IMG/VR virus record: IMGVR_UViG_3300029939_000041
Location: 1 to 24,706 of that record
Reading direction: 5' to 3' (one strand)
Source: a virus
Length of the DNA: 24,706 nt
Shown: one piece after another, positions 2,266 to 10,585 of the stretch
Numbering within the stretch: position 1 is the first letter of the stretch
Layout of the letters: each line of letters starts with the position of its first letter
The notes under the pieces: model-generated
What the model saw: only the letters and a program-made list of their open reading frames with translations
What the model was told of the DNA's origin: nothing
The model's database searches: none
Made by a program: the position numbers and the translations under genes

Positions 2266-2378
2266 AAGAGTATGAAGAAAACCGGTGGGGGTAGGTTCTA
2301 ATTATGAACCTTCATTTTTATCGTCGCTAGGCTCCATAAAATTTTATTATATTTTTAAATCGAAGGAGAGTGGTCAAC

Positions 2379-3047
2379 ATGTTATATTTTGCATATCATA
2401 GAACATCTACTACAGACCAACATTTAGATAGAGGCCTTACAGAAATAAATGAGTTCATTGCTAAGGAAGGAATTACATTGATAAATAAGATTTATACAGA
2501 TCAATGTACTGGCAAGAATTTTGATAGACCTAATTATAAAAAGCTAATTGAAGATATGGATTTAATAAAACAAGCTAATCCAATAGAAGAAATAGCTTTA
2601 ATTGTTACTGAATTAGATAGACTTGGTAGAAATAAGCAACTTACTCTAAAAGAGATTTCTATACTTAAAGATAAAGGTATAAGGCTGATGGTTTTAGAAA
2701 TTCCAACAACATTAACTGATTATGCTACTTTTAAAGATAATAACATGGCCAAGATGATGATGGAAACAATTAATAATATGTTAGTTGAAATGTACGCATC
2801 CTTTGCTCAAGCTGAATTAGAAAAAAAAGAAAAAAGACAACGCGAAGGAATTTCAGCAAAAAAGGCCAGGGGTGAATGGGATGATTATGGAAGACCAAGA
2901 GCATTAGATTTTGAAAAATTCTCTAAGGCCTATAAAAGAGTTTTAGATGGTGAAATTAAACCTACTGAATGTATGAAACTTTTAGAAATGACTAAACCAA
3001 CTTATTACAGATATGCTAAAGAGTATAGTGAAAAGGTTGGTATATGA
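2379..3047 (+). CDS. Small serine recombinase (resolvase/invertase family)
   Basis: ATG 2379 follows GAAGGAGAG (2362-2370) by 8 bp; an in-frame GTG at 2370 overlaps that ribosome binding site and is rejected. The 222-aa protein begins MLYFAYHRTSTTDQHLDRG, with the expected catalytic serine at residue 10. It has the family motif ELDRLGRN at about residue 78, the long helix with QAELEKKEKRQREGI and the KARGEWDDYGRP segment that leads to the C-terminal DNA-binding helix-turn-helix (about 175-220). The length is typical of resolvases and invertases and much shorter than large serine integrases. It has its own consensus promoter and a palindromic candidate site upstream, and separates terS from terL. 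It could resolve dimers of an extrachromosomal prophage or invert a segment outside the window. Confidence 0.85.
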   Translation: MLYFAYHRTSTTDQHLDRGLTEINEFIAKEGITLINKIYTDQCTGKNFDRPNYKKLIEDMDLIKQANPIEEIALIVTELDRLGRNKQLTLKEISILKDKGIRLMVLEIPTTLTDYATFKDNNMAKMMMETINNMLVEMYASFAQAELEKKEKRQREGISAKKARGEWDDYGRPRALDFEKFSKAYKRVLDGEIKPTECMKLLEMTKPTYYRYAKEYSEKVGI

Positions 3048-3341: not shown

Positions 3342-3492
3342 AAATTTTAAATTCATATAGAAAGGTGGTGTTATAGCAGCATGATATATTTTGACAATAA
3401 ACAATTTGATACAGAAATTTTAAATTCATATAGAAAGGTGGTGTTATAGCAGCATGATATATTTTGACAATAAACAATTTGATACAGAAATT
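3342..3492 (+). repeat. 73-bp tandem duplication of the terL translation start
   Basis: Bases 3342-3419 repeat as 3415-3492 with no mismatch, a period of 73 bp. Each copy carries the same GGTGGTG ribosome binding site, an ATG (3381 and 3454) and the first codons of TerL. As 73 is not a multiple of three, the upstream copy reads a 22-residue peptide that starts exactly like TerL and stops at TAG 3447-3449, 4 bp before the true ATG. It is either a recent duplication acting as a leader peptide or an assembly error. Confidence 0.9.
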
Positions 3493-4263
3493 AAATATGA
3501 GATATATTTATTAAAAAATTATTTAACTAAACATTATGATGAAGATACTGCTATAGCTCTACTTAAAAATAATAATTCTGATCTTGACAAATTAGCAAAA
3601 GCTTTAAGCGAAATTGATATAGAATTCTTTTGTTTATACTTCATGAGTGATACTTTTGTAGTTAAAGACACTAATGTAGCTAGACAACTTTCAAAAGGCC
3701 ATTATGAGTTATGGGATATTGCAAATGAGATATTTGTAGAAGATAAAAGAGACAAAGCTGCGATTATAGAACCAAGAGGATATGCAAAGACTACTATATT
3801 TGATATGGCTGTTAGTGTGTGGTTGCATTGTTATAAAAAATCTATATTTACTCTACTTGGTGCTAAAACTGATACAGATGCAACTCAATTCCTTGATTCT
3901 ATTAAGAAAGTATTTAATGAAAATGAAAAAATAATTAAATGCTTTGGTAAATTAATAGATATTAAGGCAATGAAGGTAAATGGCGAAAGATATACTGTTA
4001 ATGCGAATGAGGTTGAGTTTACTAATGGAACCTATATTAAAACCGTTGGTTCTGGAACATCTGTCAGAGGAGCCAATTGGGGAGGAATAAGACCAACAGT
4101 ATTTATTGGTGATGACTTTCAAGATGAAAAGAATATCCTTACTGATGCAGCAAGAGATAAACAATATTCTAAATGGACTAAGGAAATTGAAGAGGTTGGA
4201 GATAAAGCAGTTTATAGAAAAGGTGTAAAAGTTAAAGCCGCTACCAAGATTATTGCTATCGGT
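3454..4263 (+). CDS. terL: Terminase large subunit, exon 1 (ATPase part)
   Basis: Exon 1 gives residues 1-270 of a 586-aa TerL once the intron at 4264-5341 is removed. The ATPase motifs are visible: a Walker A variant EPRGYAKTT (106-114), Walker B VFIGDD (216-221), and IAIG (267-270), the first half of the coupling motif. TerL docks on the portal, pumps DNA into the prohead and cuts the concatemer. The exon ends after a complete GGT codon; unspliced mRNA would instead add five codons and stop at 4279-4281, losing the nuclease domain. The start is at the second copy of the 73-bp duplication, the only one in frame. The 5' exon ends in T, as group I splicing requires. Confidence 0.9.
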
Positions 4264-4334
4264 AGAATAGTGCCGATGTAAAATCGAGTAAAATCGGTGA
4301 AGGCTAAGCAATATTTATAATTAATGAATAATAT

Positions 4335-4363
4335 TTGATAAAACACTCAAAATGTGGTATAGT
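4335..4363 (+). promoter_or_regulatory. Candidate promoter inside the intron for the HNH gene
   Basis: TTGATA (4335-4340), exactly 17 bp, then TATAGT (4358-4363). It lies 33 bp before the endonuclease ATG and would allow the enzyme to be made independently of terL transcription. Internal promoters are known for some phage intron endonuclease genes. Confidence 0.5.
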
Positions 4364-4395
4364 TAAAATGTAGTATTTTAGGGGGGGGTTGTCAA

Positions 4396-5169
4396 ATGTT
4401 GATCAGTAAAAAAATAGAAATGGTTTGGTGTGGAGCGAATAAAAAATATTTCATTGATAAAGATTATAAATTTACTAAAATGGGTGAAAAATTTATTATA
4501 AACGTTACAGATTTAAAACCGAGAGCTAGTTTAGATGTTATTGTTAAATGCGATATATGTGGGGAAGAAAAAAAGACTAGATATTCTACATATACAAGAA
4601 GTAACGAATTAAATGGTGAATACAGATGCGATAAATGCTCTAGGATTAAAAAAGCTAAGTATACAGTGCACAGTATTGAAGAATATTTGAAAGAATATGG
4701 GTATGCTTTAGTAGATGATATGGGTTATCATAAAATGCACGATAAAATAAAAATGAGATGTTATAAAGGACATGAATATATAGCAGAGTTCAATTCTTTT
4801 AAAAGTGGGTATAGGTGTCCTCAATGTGAAAAGGAAAGATGGATGAAAGAAGGCAACCCAAGATATAATCCAAATTTATCGGAAGAAGAAAGAAAAGAAA
4901 ATGAAAGCCGACATAGCGAATATAACTATAGAAGATGGTTTAAAAATGTATTCAAAAGAGATAGATATACTTGTTGTATATGTGGTGTAAAAGGTAAGGA
5001 AATGAACGCACATCACTTAAATGGGTTTAGTGAATTTAAGGAAGATAGATATAAAGTAGAAAATGGAGTTACTTTATGTAAAGAGTGTCATGTAGAATTT
5101 CACAAAATATATAGATATGGGAATAACACTAAAGAACAATTCTATAAATTTATAAATAATGTATGCTAA
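4396..5169 (+). CDS. Intron-encoded HNH homing endonuclease
   Basis: This 257-aa protein starts 7 bp after a run of eight Gs that serves as ribosome binding site. In order: a zinc-binding region with CDICGE (about residue 54) and CDKC (about 78); a second CxxC pair around RCPQCEKE (about 140) followed by GNPRYNPNLSEEER, a motif seen in phage HNH endonucleases; and a C-terminal HNH domain with CCICG (about 194), AHHLNGF (about 205), an Asn in NGVTLCKECH and a final FH. Enzymes of this type cut intronless alleles of the host gene so that repair copies the intron across. Its TAA stop (5167-5169) lies next to the P4 strand, so the ORF and ribozyme core nearly overlap. Confidence 0.92.
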   Translation: MLISKKIEMVWCGANKKYFIDKDYKFTKMGEKFIINVTDLKPRASLDVIVKCDICGEEKKTRYSTYTRSNELNGEYRCDKCSRIKKAKYTVHSIEEYLKEYGYALVDDMGYHKMHDKIKMRCYKGHEYIAEFNSFKSGYRCPQCEKERWMKEGNPRYNPNLSEEERKENESRHSEYNYRRWFKNVFKRDRYTCCICGVKGKEMNAHHLNGFSEFKEDRYKVENGVTLCKECHVEFHKIYRYGNNTKEQFYKFINNVC

Positions 5170-5341
5170 TACCGAGGTAATTCTTTAGATTACGAAAGGC
5201 TAAAGAACACCGTAGAGCGTAGAGGGTGAATAAATATAATCCCTCCAAGAGTATTCGACAGCCTTTTGGTTGAAAATGTACGCCGAACTTATAGGAAACT
5301 ATAAGAACATAGGGATAAAAAGCCTTATGGATAACAAATTG

Positions 5342-6292
5342 ACTATATTGCATATTGATTGCCTTATGAGTAGATTAAGTAGAAATGGTGATTATTATAC
5401 TATTTTAAGACGTGCTATAATTCTCGAAGCTGAACAAACTGTTGAGAGTATATTTGAAAGTGAACTATGGCTCCAATGTAAAGAGATTTATTTTAATGAA
5501 AAACTTAATAAAGATGAAAGAAAAGAGAAAGCAAAGCAATTCTATGAGGACCACAAAGAAGAAATGAAATTTGAAACCTGGTGGCCTGAAAAATGGGATT
5601 GCTTTAATGATTTAGCCATTAAATATTGGGAAAATCGTATAGCTTTTATGTCTGAGTTGATGAATGATGCCACAAGTATAGGTGAAAAATGGTTTAAATC
5701 TGTTTCTACAAGACCAAGTGCTGAGATTGAGGAATATACTTTTACTAAAACTATGCTTATTGTGGATCCAGCTTCAACTACTACTAAGAAAAGTGACTAT
5801 ACATTTATCGGTGCGGGTTCGGAAGCTACAAATGGATTCACTTATGTTCGTGATTTTATCATGAAAAGGCTTGAATATACTGAATACTGTAATAAAGTCA
5901 TTGAAATGTTAGAAAAACATGATGATATAACACATATTAAGATAGAAAAAAACACATATCAGGGGGCAGATGTTACAAAAATCAAAGAATTGATTGCTAA
6001 GCATCCAAAACTTAAGTTTAAAAGATATGAGTTTATCAATGAAATGCAAAGAAGAAATAAAGATGAAAAAATTAGTACTGTTATCGATCCAGTAAACAAT
6101 GGCCAGATCATATTAAATCAAGATTGCAAAGACTGTAAGGAAGTTGTAGATCAAATTAAAGACTTTCAAGGGCAATTATATACGTTGCATGATGATGCTA
6201 TTGATGCTATCGCAGAATTACAGAATGCATTAAAAGAAATAAAAGTTGTAAGTAAAATAACTTTATTAGATAGAAAATTATTAGGAATTTAG
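5342..6292 (+). CDS. terL: Terminase large subunit, exon 2 (nuclease part)
   Basis: Exon 2 gives residues 271-586 and ends with TAG at 6290-6292. It opens with TILHIDCL, which completes the coupling motif IAIGTILH begun in exon 1. The RNase H-like headful nuclease follows, with candidate metal-binding acidic residues D412 in MLIVDPAST, E472 in IKIEKNTYQG and D554/D555/D558 in LHDDAIDAIAE. These three acidic positions are the family signature. The same frame is open back to an ATG at 5270, but that part is ribozyme sequence (P8, P7, P9) and not coding; a standalone gene call from 5270 would be wrong. The portal gene starts 15 bp later. Confidence 0.92.
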   Translation, partial: TILHIDCLMSRLSRNGDYYTILRRAIILEAEQTVESIFESELWLQCKEIYFNEKLNKDERKEKAKQFYEDHKEEMKFETWWPEKWDCFNDLAIKYWENRIAFMSELMNDATSIGEKWFKSVSTRPSAEIEEYTFTKTMLIVDPASTTTKKSDYTFIGAGSEATNGFTYVRDFIMKRLEYTEYCNKVIEMLEKHDDITHIKIEKNTYQGADVTKIKELIAKHPKLKFKRYEFINEMQRRNKDEKISTVIDPVNNGQIILNQDCKDCKEVVDQIKDFQGQLYTLHDDAIDAIAELQNALKEIKVVSKITLLDRKLLGI

Positions 6293-6306: not shown

Positions 6307-7680
6307 ATGGATAATGCATTAGTGCAGAGATACCATGATATATTTTTAGCAAATAGAAATAGATACTTGGAAATAGAATATTATTACAATGGTTTTACTG
6401 AAGCCTCTAGAGGATATAAGGAATTAGATGAAAGATCAAATTTGAAGGTTGGAGTTAATTTCTTAAAGAAATTTGTTAAAGAAGAAGTCAGTTATTCAGT
6501 TGGAAATGACATTAACTATATATCTAAAAGTGGCGATGGAGAAATTATAAAGGTTATAGATGATAATTTTCAAAATCTAAGTACTCAACATGATATTGAG
6601 TTAATGAAAACCATGCTTAAATTTAATCGAGCATTTGAACTTTTCTATATAAATGATGATGGGGAATTTAAAAGCAAGGTAATTTCTCCACTTGAAGGAT
6701 TTCTTATTAGAGAAAATAATGAAATAGTAGGCTTTGGCAGGGAATATGTAGTAAGAGGTGAAGAAGACGTAACTTGGATTGACGTTTATACCAAAGAAGA
6801 TATAAAACATTATAAAGTCGGTGAAGAATATGAAGAAGCGGAAGATGTTCAGCCTAACGTATTTGGTTTTGTTCCAGTAGGTGTTGCTAGATTAGGACTT
6901 GAAGAACATCACTGGTGCGGTTTAGTTGATACAGGAATTTGGGATGATGGAATTTATGATACACTTTGGAATGATATCAAAGGATTGCAAGATGCGTATG
7001 AAACCAACTTATCAGACTTAACCAATGAAATTAGTGATTTTAGAAATGCTTATTTAGTAGTTGCAGGAGCAGAATTAGATGAACCTACAGCAGCCCAAAT
7101 GAAGAAAAAAGGTATTCTTAACTCAACAGATGCCAATGCAAAGTTTGAATGGTTGATCAAAAAACTTGATAGTAGCTTTATTCAAGAAAATTTACAAACT
7201 TTAGAAGATAAGATGTACCAAATTTCTCAACATATTAATCATAATGAAAAGTTGCATAGTAATTTAAGCGGCGTAAGCTTGAGATCAAGGCTTATATCGC
7301 TTGAAGAAAAATGTAAACTTAATCAAAGAGCCTTAACTGATTGTATAAGAGTCAGATTAAAGGCTTTATTTACGTGGTGGAACACATTAAAAGGGACTAA
7401 TCTTGATTGGAAAGATATTAAGGTTAAATTCACACCGAATATTCCTCAAGACGATTTAACAAACTCTCAGATCATTCAGCAATTAGGGGATAAATTATCA
7501 TTGGAAACAGCATTATCTCTGTTAAGTTTCGTTGAAAATCCAAATCTAGAAGCCCAAAAAGCTAAAAGGGAGCAGCAAGAAGCAATGCTAGAAACTAATT
7601 TAGATAATATCGATACAAATAGCAATAAAGATGATATTAATCCCACTACAGGCAATGTTAAGGTAAATAATCATGAGTAA
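6307..7680 (+). CDS. Portal protein, SPP1 gp6-like
   Basis: The ATG follows AGGAGGTGAAA, which overlaps the terL stop. At 457 aa this matches SPP1-type portals. The N-terminal region contains YYNGFTEASRGYKELDERSNLKVGVNFLKKFV, read here in two parts around residues 26-57, typical of the family; the central part has a GLVDTG-containing wing/stem region, and residues about 330-400 are helical. The C-terminal 40 residues are Asn- and Asp-rich and probably disordered. Twelve copies form the ring at the head vertex through which TerL pumps DNA. Its last codons overlap the next gene by 8 bp (7673-7680), indicating coupled synthesis of portal and minor head protein, as in SPP1. Confidence 0.88.
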   Translation: MDNALVQRYHDIFLANRNRYLEIEYYYNGFTEASRGYKELDERSNLKVGVNFLKKFVKEEVSYSVGNDINYISKSGDGEIIKVIDDNFQNLSTQHDIELMKTMLKFNRAFELFYINDDGEFKSKVISPLEGFLIRENNEIVGFGREYVVRGEEDVTWIDVYTKEDIKHYKVGEEYEEAEDVQPNVFGFVPVGVARLGLEEHHWCGLVDTGIWDDGIYDTLWNDIKGLQDAYETNLSDLTNEISDFRNAYLVVAGAELDEPTAAQMKKKGILNSTDANAKFEWLIKKLDSSFIQENLQTLEDKMYQISQHINHNEKLHSNLSGVSLRSRLISLEEKCKLNQRALTDCIRVRLKALFTWWNTLKGTNLDWKDIKVKFTPNIPQDDLTNSQIIQQLGDKLSLETALSLLSFVENPNLEAQKAKREQQEAMLETNLDNIDTNSNKDDINPTTGNVKVNNHE

Positions 7681-9079
7681 ACTTACGAAAGGCCAACAAT
7701 TCTTTAGTGATAGGTCCCTAGAATTTGCTCAAGAAATTTATAATCAAAATGAAAGTAAAATAAATGATATTTTAAAGGACCAAAAGAGTAACAGGGATGA
7801 AATTTTAACCCAAATAGCAAAGATATTATTATCCTACAATATATCAAATAATGTTTTATCTCTTAATGCAGCAGAAAAAGCAAAATTATATTCACAATTA
7901 AGTGATTTAATAACAGAAAAGATTAAATCAGAACTTAAAAATGAAACTGAAGCCACTAAAGGAATATTAACTGATGTTGCTAATGATAAATATGATACCA
8001 ATAATTATATTTATAGCTTAGGTAAGGATTTTAATATAACTCAGTTAGATGATAAACAGCTAGATGAAGTTGTAAATAAGAAACTAAAAAGTGAACTGTG
8101 GTCTGATAGAATATATGCAAATAAAAATGCTATTGCCAAGGATTTAAAACTACAAGTTAAAAAGTTCTTAAAAGGTGATATCAATGTAAATGATATTGAA
8201 AATGTTATTAAAACTAAATATAACGTTAATGCTACTAATGCAAGCAGATTAGTAAATACAGAAATAACTAGAGTTCAATCTGACGCTAATGAGATTTGGG
8301 CACAAGAGCATGATATAAAATACCAAATGTTTATGGCCACCTTAGATATTAGGACAAGCCAAATATGTCGTGAACATGACGGAAAGGTTTATGCTGTAGA
8401 TGATCCTGATAAACCAATTCCGCCATTACATCCTAATTGCAGGTCAGTGCTTGTGAATTTACCCGATAAGGATTGGCGGCCTAAAATGCGACTTGATAAT
8501 GAAACTAAGCAGAATATTGATTGGCAAAGTTATCAAGAATGGCATAAAAATTATGTAGAAAATAATCCTGAAAGACTTGCCAATGAAAAAATGATTAAAA
8601 ATAAATCATCTGACAATAAATTATATGAGAAATATAAAAATATTTTAGGAAAAGAAATGCCTAAAACATTGGCAGATTTCCAAAAGTTAAAGTATAATAA
8701 TAGTAATGAGTGGGATTTACTAAAAGACTATGTAAAATCAAGATCAAATAATATGATATCAGCATTTAATTCTTTTGATGATTACAAAAAATATAAAAAT
8801 TTAATTGAAAATAAAATAGTAGGATTAACAACATCAAATGGAATTAAAATAACTGGACAGAGTAAACATTTTATAGAAAGGGCATTGGGGACAACAGAAG
8901 ATCCTCATACTGGTAGACCTAGAAGCGGAGTTGAAATAAATCATATTAAAGATGCCATTCAAAATGGAAGTATACGAACTAGGAAAAATGATCCAGATAG
9001 CATAAAATTTATTACTGAAAAATGTATAGTATCAATAAATCCAAACACTGGACTTTTAATTCAAGTTAATCCACAATAA
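7673..9079 (+). CDS. Minor head protein (SPP1 gp7-like) with C-terminal BECR-type nuclease-like domain
   Basis: This 468-aa protein overlaps the portal gene. The helical N-terminal part and the domain at about residues 195-262 (EITRVQSDANEIW, TSQICREHDG, then PPLHPNCRSVL with conserved Cys, His and Arg) identify an SPP1 gp7/Mu gpF-type head morphogenesis protein, which binds portal and can be carried in the head. Residues about 300-468 are extra. The last 80 (from about 388) contain GQSKHFIERAL with H399 and R403, then a basic RTRKND stretch and beta-strand-like C-terminus. This pattern resembles the PBECR (phage Barnase-EndoU-ColicinE5/D-RelE) RNase-like domains known at the C-terminus of phage head proteins. 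Nuclease activity is inferred. The acidic gene that follows may encode a matching immunity protein. Confidence 0.82.
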   Translation: MSKLTKGQQFFSDRSLEFAQEIYNQNESKINDILKDQKSNRDEILTQIAKILLSYNISNNVLSLNAAEKAKLYSQLSDLITEKIKSELKNETEATKGILTDVANDKYDTNNYIYSLGKDFNITQLDDKQLDEVVNKKLKSELWSDRIYANKNAIAKDLKLQVKKFLKGDINVNDIENVIKTKYNVNATNASRLVNTEITRVQSDANEIWAQEHDIKYQMFMATLDIRTSQICREHDGKVYAVDDPDKPIPPLHPNCRSVLVNLPDKDWRPKMRLDNETKQNIDWQSYQEWHKNYVENNPERLANEKMIKNKSSDNKLYEKYKNILGKEMPKTLADFQKLKYNNSNEWDLLKDYVKSRSNNMISAFNSFDDYKKYKNLIENKIVGLTTSNGIKITGQSKHFIERALGTTEDPHTGRPRSGVEINHIKDAIQNGSIRTRKNDPDSIKFITEKCIVSINPNTGLLIQVNPQ

Positions 9080-9098
9080 AAATTAAGGAGGGGTTCTT

Positions 9099-9359
9099 GT
9101 GAAATTTAAATTAAATAAGAGTATTTTCGATATTTTAAAGAATAATGTAGTAGATACTTTGGAATATCTACAGGATTTAAATGAAGATAATGAGAAAGTA
9201 ACTTTTGTTATAAAAGATGAAGATGTGCAAGAAGTTCAATTATTGATAAATGACGAGATAGTTCTTCATGGTATGGATAATCAGCAAAAGGTAAATGAGT
9301 TAGGTTTAAAATTATATAAATTGTATGATGAAATTTTATACCAAAAGAATAATCAATAA
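9099..9359 (+). CDS. Small acidic protein, candidate immunity partner of the head-linked nuclease
   Basis: GTG start at 9099, 5 bp after AAGGAGGGG (9085-9093). The 86-aa product is acidic in its centre (LEYLQDLNEDNEK, about 20-32; VIKDEDVQEVQLL, about 37-49) with alternating predicted strands and a C-terminal helix. I do not recognise a named family. Its place immediately after a protein with a nuclease-like C-terminal domain, its small size and its acidity are the usual signs of an immunity protein, but this is inference from context. It is followed at once by a junction hairpin, so it forms a unit with the upstream gene. Confidence 0.6.
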   Translation: MKFKLNKSIFDILKNNVVDTLEYLQDLNEDNEKVTFVIKDEDVQEVQLLINDEIVLHGMDNQQKVNELGLKLYKLYDEILYQKNNQ

Positions 9360-10204: not shown

Positions 10205-10585
10205 ATGAAAGAATCAAGTACAATTCAAAAAAGAGAAAAACTAAACCACGTATTTTCAACAGATGAAGAAGGTCCAGGAGGCGCACATCATAAATATAAA
10301 ATTGAATATGAATTATTTCCAGTAGGAAAACCTAAAGAGACTCATGTTCTTGCAGGGATTCAATTTCAAAAAGGTCCAAGAAAAGAAGAAGGTTCAATTC
10401 ATGGTGTAATTGATACTGATTTACTAGAAATAGTAAGAGACAGATTAAAGTCTTTTCAGTCTGGCCCATTTTCAAGTAGAGAAAATGCGTGTGCATTAAC
10501 CCATATTGAAGAAGCTTTAATGTGGATGAACAGAAGAGTTGAAGATAGAATTGAGAGGGATGTATTGGGAAAGAATGAAAAATAA
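10205..10585 (+). CDS. Tad1-like signal-nucleotide sponge (anti-Thoeris/anti-CBASS)
   Basis: The 126-aa protein starts after AAGGAGGAATTAAAATA. Residues about 20-75 form a Gly-rich beta region ([34 protein letters not shown]). Residues about 75-126 form the helical hairpin shared by Tad1 and Acb2 proteins: [20 protein letters not shown], then [20 protein letters not shown] and a final [14 protein letters not shown]. Tad1 proteins bind the cyclic ADP-ribose isomer made by Thoeris TIR enzymes, and some also bind cyclic nucleotides of CBASS; a clostridial homologue (cbTad1) of similar size has been crystallised. The domain order and length support Tad1 rather than the shorter Acb2. The ligand of this copy is not determined. 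Placement in the structural operon implies late as well as possible early expression. Confidence 0.78.

Follow-up and report, generated by a model that had tools for sequence, protein, structure and literature searches.

A Candidate Toxin and Immunity Pair on the MuF Head Protein of a Clostridium-Type Phage

The Locus and Its Head Protein

The window analysed here is a stretch of 24,706 nucleotides (positions 1 to 24,706 of IMG/VR record IMGVR_UViG_3300029939_000041), a linear and incomplete viral contig. The ORF at 7673-9079 (+) encodes a 468 aa minor head protein of the SPP1 gp7 or MuF1 type, recognised in Pfam and TIGR01641 scans (PF04233, 46 bits; TIGR01641, 69 bits), with the Phage_Mu_F domain at aa 170-260. 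An SPP1-type portal gene (6307-7680) lies immediately upstream, the placement expected of a MuF polymorphic toxin. From about aa 297 the body gives way to a C-terminal extension which runs to aa 468, and the two parts differ in charge, the body having a pI of 5.9 and the extension a pI of 9.5. A reading of this DNA from the sequence only had described an extension of about 160 residues with a basic segment; the extension and its basic character are borne out, and its measured length is 172 aa. MuF toxins carry a toxin domain in a C-terminal extension of at least 100 aa, and such a domain is indicated here, at the level of sequence and model, by the BECR-like predicted fold and by homology to the C-terminus of an Rhs protein. 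The features of the locus are as follows.

7673..8560, + strand: SPP1 gp7 / MuF1 (PF04233) minor head protein body, aa 1-296 (Pfam, TIGR01641; 61-63% identity to the bodies of loci L090 and L005)
8606..8737, + strand: helical adaptor of about 44 residues at the body-tip junction, aa 312-355 (profile matches in MuF proteins with unrelated toxins; helical in the model)
8738..8818, + strand: helical connector, aa 356-382, kept with the toxin in phage versions (alignment; model helix at aa ~368-381)
8819..9076, + strand: BECR-like nuclease core, aa 383-468, with an Hxx[ED]R helix, a second helix, four strands and SINPxTGxLIQxNP (AlphaFold, Foldseek, Rhs homologue)
8867..8881, + strand: candidate catalytic residues H399 to R403, HFIER (conservation among homologues)
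9086..9093, + strand: Shine-Dalgarno sequence of the candidate immunity gene, AGGAGGGG (direct reading)
9099..9359, + strand: candidate immunity gene, 86 aa, acidic (co-occurrence and co-divergence with the toxin core; homologue behind an Rhs-borne toxin)

Since the contig is linear and incomplete, a temperate lifestyle is inferred from the relatives of the locus, which sit in bacterial genomes. Genes for an AntA-type antirepressor and a serine resolvase are encoded in the window at 188-943 and 2370-3047 and fit a temperate lineage. The large terminase gene appears to be split, with the ORF at 3454-4281 corresponding to positions 254-449 of PHROG 38 and the ORF at 5270-6292 to positions 450-706. 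An HNH homing-type endonuclease ORF (4396-5169) lies between the two parts, and no Rfam intron match was obtained in the region 3454-6292. In the gene island between the MuF and scaffold genes, a 126-aa protein (10205-10585) contains an Acb2/Tad1 hairpin domain (PF24729, E 1.6e-8) and is possibly an anti-CBASS or anti-Thoeris nucleotide sponge.

The Predicted Nuclease Tip

The tip was modelled with AlphaFold2 from the C-terminal region and 27 homologues, at a mean pLDDT of 92. The model contains several helices, after which come the SKHFIERA helix, a second helix and four strands. This agrees with the BECR arrangement of an N-terminal helix and four or five strands, and the His expected in the first helix is present as H399. 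The best PDB matches in Foldseek are BECR proteins, at weak E-values of 0.02 and above, with none at E 0.001. The top three are all CdiA-CT of NC101, followed by RelE, HigB and colicin E5 (PDB 3ao9, which we take to be the colicin E5 entry). As the E-values are weak, the fold call depends on how well the hits agree with one another, on the first-helix His and on a remote similarity to DUF4258. Taken together, these support a predicted BECR-like nuclease fold for the tip. The CdiA-CT of E. coli NC101 is an EF-Tu-assisted tRNase (PMC9086364).

H399 and R403 had been located correctly within GQSKHFIERAL by the sequence-only reading. Both are invariant in the tip alignments, and the full Hxx[ED]R motif is found in 32 of the 34 homologues. 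The strand-4 position which usually holds a Ser or Thr in BECR enzymes is Q464 here; Thr or Ser occurs at this site in divergent members only, and S443, S/T454 and T459 are conserved nearby. The replacement by Gln means that catalysis may be altered, and the exact chemistry is uncertain.

The earlier assignment of the last 80 or so residues to the PBECR nucleases stands only in part. The BECR-like fold is retained through AlphaFold and Foldseek, and PBECR membership is not, since no PBECR or MuF-C Pfam model matched at E<=10 in scans of 11 members of the tip family. Profile comparison of the extension with PBECR3 by hhalign gave probabilities of 0.4-1.4%, and membership of that family was rejected. 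Nothing relevant came from scanning the extension directly against Pfam and NCBIfam, or from searching PDB sequences by profile. The nearest Pfam family is DUF4258 (PF14076), with an hhalign probability of 66-83% across the first half of the tip; against its own cut-off of 25 bits the window gives no match and distant relatives reach at most 21.8 bits. The tip represents a candidate toxin family without a Pfam model, new within the known MuF toxin class.

The Downstream Gene and Its Exchange with the Tip

The small ORF at 9099-9359 begins with GTG behind a strong Shine-Dalgarno sequence, 19 nt past the stop of the head-protein gene, and encodes a protein of 86 aa with a pI of 4.5 and a net charge of -7. 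Its position and acidity are as first described, and so is its lack of resemblance to structural proteins: there was no match in Pfam or NCBIfam and no significant match in PHROG. A Pfam scan of 12 members of the small-protein family found no relevant match to known immunity (Imm) families. The protein is modelled at a pLDDT of 95.5, and a fold search with the model found no significant match among solved structures.

In dozens of phages and prophages, the tip core and the small gene are conserved and recur together, so that their pairing exceeds chance. Homologous tips are borne on both PF04233 (MuF1) and PF06152 (MuF2) bodies; their carriers are Clostridia phages and prophages and one Enterococcaceae bin. 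In nearly all cases with complete downstream sequence, a small ORF is positioned at -11 to +19 nt behind the tip. The closest gp7 relative without an extension is informative in this regard. The body of L090, 61% identical to that of the window, ends at aa 297, and the scaffold gene comes directly after it, without a small ORF between them. A small gene that also followed gp7 proteins lacking the extension would have spoken against the pairing, and the proposal survives this comparison. An ORF of fewer than 150 aa immediately downstream, missing from short MuF relatives, is a feature of MuF toxins which the window shares.

A joint exchange of toxin and partner between head proteins had been predicted, and the survey returned it. 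Between the window and L004, the bodies are 22% identical, the toxins 94% and the partners 76%, the same tip being placed on a MuF1 body in one and a MuF2 body in the other. Toxin and partner distances are strongly correlated across 24 pairs (Mantel r 0.83; 0/5000 permutations) and also within ten MuF1 proteins (r 0.89). Body and toxin distances correlate at r 0.11, that is, the toxin diverges independently of the body.

Some related loci have lost part of the arrangement. In the bacterial genomes of L075/L080 and L079, truncated toxin remnants are followed by an intact-looking immunity gene, which fits orphan immunity genes. In Streptococcus phage Javan284 (L082), the head gene is followed by a tip-like stretch that is not in its reading frame, and the downstream small gene is retained; this is a decayed toxin with a retained partner.

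The same toxin domain was found outside phage heads. In one bacterial chromosome (L078:7722-13804, minus strand), a 1941-aa Rhs/YD-repeat protein ends in a homologous toxin domain. An 86-aa ORF that overlaps the end of its gene by 4 nt encodes a homologue of the small protein of the window (17.2 bits; 0/3000 shuffles reach this score, the shuffle maximum being 13.0). The swapping of a toxin between delivery systems with its partner attached is a hallmark of polymorphic toxin-immunity modules. Just downstream (L078:5434-6912), a further and shorter Rhs fragment, whose C-terminal tip is different, resembles a spare tip cassette.

The proposal that the small gene is an immunity partner is supported by its co-occurrence and co-divergence with the toxin, its homologue behind the Rhs-borne toxin, its absence from L090 and the match of an acidic product to a basic tip. 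On these comparisons, a role as the cognate immunity gene of the tip is strongly supported. At the sequence level, the analysis documents the architecture, the fold prediction, the cassette-like exchange of toxin and partner between unrelated carriers and their co-divergence.

The Adaptor between Body and Tip

The adaptor has the consensus xxDxxQYxKYKxILGxxAPKSLxxFQxLKYNxxxxyxxLKD. MuF proteins with other tips show profile matches to it at 26-47 bits, and there was no match in the short MuF protein of L090 or in the Rhs protein. Viral contigs were scanned with this stretch alone, through a profile built from six closer alignment rows. The scan yielded 80 viral loci, each matching the profile, of which the 75 complete ones comprise 11 tip families on three body clusters. 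The adaptor recurs, before at least 11 unrelated tips, at 8606-8737 of the window and in L116-L128, L130-L135 and L137-L215. The tips behind it include Ntox50, a BURPS668-type deaminase and an SM1-like tip, along with several that have no Pfam name. These loci were chosen by the adaptor, so that its presence is by construction and the result concerns what surrounds it. A small ORF led by a Shine-Dalgarno sequence (<=150 aa) follows 52 of 53 distinct adaptor-borne tips; these ORFs have a median length of 69 aa and a median pI of 4.5, with a pI below 6 in 50. Counts are given as distinct tips and not as independent events because closely related Streptococcus prophages account for many of the loci.

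In PHROG, the adaptor stretch corresponds to segments of three separate families; no Pfam model matches it. It was also considered as a part of the obligatory MuF fold, which was rejected, as it is missing from L090, from L093 and from some toxin-bearing MuF proteins (L084, L087). In L136 the adaptor is followed by only about 15 residues and by no small gene; it can evidently persist without a tip. The table of Zhang et al. gives no pre-toxin domain for the MuF route (PMC3482391), and the literature searched held no description of the adaptor. The odds are about even that it is a dedicated pre-toxin module, serving as a docking, release or translocation element and as an exchange point for interchangeable tips on MuF1, MuF2 and MuF3 proteins. 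If so, toxins carried by phages and so far unrecognised could be traced through its sequence, along with their immunity genes, and the exit of MuF toxins from the head into the cytoplasm could be tested by mutating one small element.

Proposed Function and Alternative Explanations

The best joint explanation, with a probability of roughly 0.8, is that a Clostridium-type phage of temperate lifestyle encodes here a MuF polymorphic toxin, made up of a head body, an adaptor and a BECR RNase tip which is injected, together with a separate immunity partner. The N-terminal body would be built into the head beside the portal, with the short helical adaptor linking it to the C-terminal tip. The tip would act as a metal-independent RNase of the BECR fold, centred on H399/E402/R403. 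It would most likely be carried in the virion and enter the target cell with the DNA; the argument for such delivery is the fusion to a head protein itself. Inside the cell, the tip would be toxic by cutting an RNA essential for translation. The favoured guess is tRNA, since tRNases predominate among the closest solved folds. By binding the basic tip, the acidic 86-aa product of the next gene would block it, shielding the cell in which the phage is assembled and later its lysogens.

A rival possibility is that the tip is an early host-takeover RNase which, once injected, serves the phage itself by cleaving mRNA of the host or defence RNA (CRISPR RNA, for example), with the small gene only a chaperone or silencer in assembly and no immunity factor in competition between bacteria. 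Iyer et al. suggest such a role for the PBECR domains of phage proteins (PMC5512222), and placement among the late genes would suit a silencer needed in assembly. The same toxin-partner module is, however, attached to a bacterial Rhs protein, where takeover would be meaningless, and the divergence of the partner tracks that of the toxin in the manner of immunity proteins; this explanation is considered unlikely.

Two others are far less probable still. That the carrier is a head protein, and that the adaptor recurs in head proteins, could point to a structural head domain in contact with the portal or DNA, the small gene then being a head accessory protein. Against this, L090 does without both extension and small gene, tips are exchanged among unrelated bodies, a homologous tip is found on the Rhs protein, and in other phages unrelated toxins (Ntox50, deaminase, ADP-ribosyltransferase) occupy the same site. 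An addiction pair of the type II toxin-antitoxin kind, fused to the head gene by chance, would accord with the listing of DUF4258, the nearest Pfam family, among the BECR families of such modules (PMC11980606). Here the toxin comes first and lies in a late virion gene, the partner has no recognisable DNA-binding region, and the layout fits MuF and Rhs polymorphic toxins instead. The chance of this explanation is as slight as that of the structural one.

Comparison with Known Systems

The sequence-only reading suggested that a toxin-immunity pair on a virion protein may not have been described. This does not hold, as MuF toxins with downstream immunity genes have already been published (PMC3482391, PMC5576092); the pair in the window therefore adds a new family of toxin and immunity gene to a kind that is already known. 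MuF was listed as a toxin delivery route by Zhang et al. in 2012 (PMC3482391), and Jamet et al. in 2017 found a small ORF behind 89% of MuF toxins compared with 25.5% of short MuF genes (PMC5576092). The window shares with these systems the MuF domain adjoining the portal gene, the C-terminal toxin, the small downstream ORF and, probably, an origin in temperate phages of Firmicutes, and differs in its tip and immunity gene, for whose families Pfam has no model.

Two MuF toxins have been tested experimentally together with their immunity proteins, in the Apk2-IapK-Aph1 system of Streptococcus pneumoniae prophages (PMC12226406) and the Bxa-Bsi-BAH system of Bacteroides (PMC11699363). Both consist of a MuF head protein with an antibacterial tip and adjacent immunity genes. 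Unlike that of the window, the tip is a (p)ppApp synthetase in the first and an ADP-ribosyltransferase in the second, and one of the partners undoes the product enzymatically. A Streptococcus phage with Apk2-type toxin and immunity genes has a gp7-type body distantly like that of the window; the Streptococcus example L093, in contrast to the window, has no adaptor.

Among BECR toxins, the tip resembles CdiA-CT NC101, colicin D/E5 and RelE in predicted fold, and its first helix has the Hxx[ED] motif ascribed to Tox-Colicin D (PMC3482391). It differs from them in having no detectable sequence homology, another carrier, and Gln at the strand-4 Ser/Thr position. The likeness to DUF4258 is a remote profile similarity in the first half, including the H..R helix; the tip falls under the Pfam cut-off, and DUF4258 was described from stand-alone toxins of toxin-antitoxin systems. 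With PBECR1-5 and MuF-C, whose fusions to MuF were described by Iyer et al. in 2017 (PMC5512222), the tip has in common a predicted BECR nuclease fused to MuF, and it is set apart by the profile comparisons given above. The MuF toxins hereby gain two families without a Pfam model, that of the probable RNase and that of its partner, and a toxin-immunity cassette common to phage heads and one bacterial Rhs toxin is now documented.
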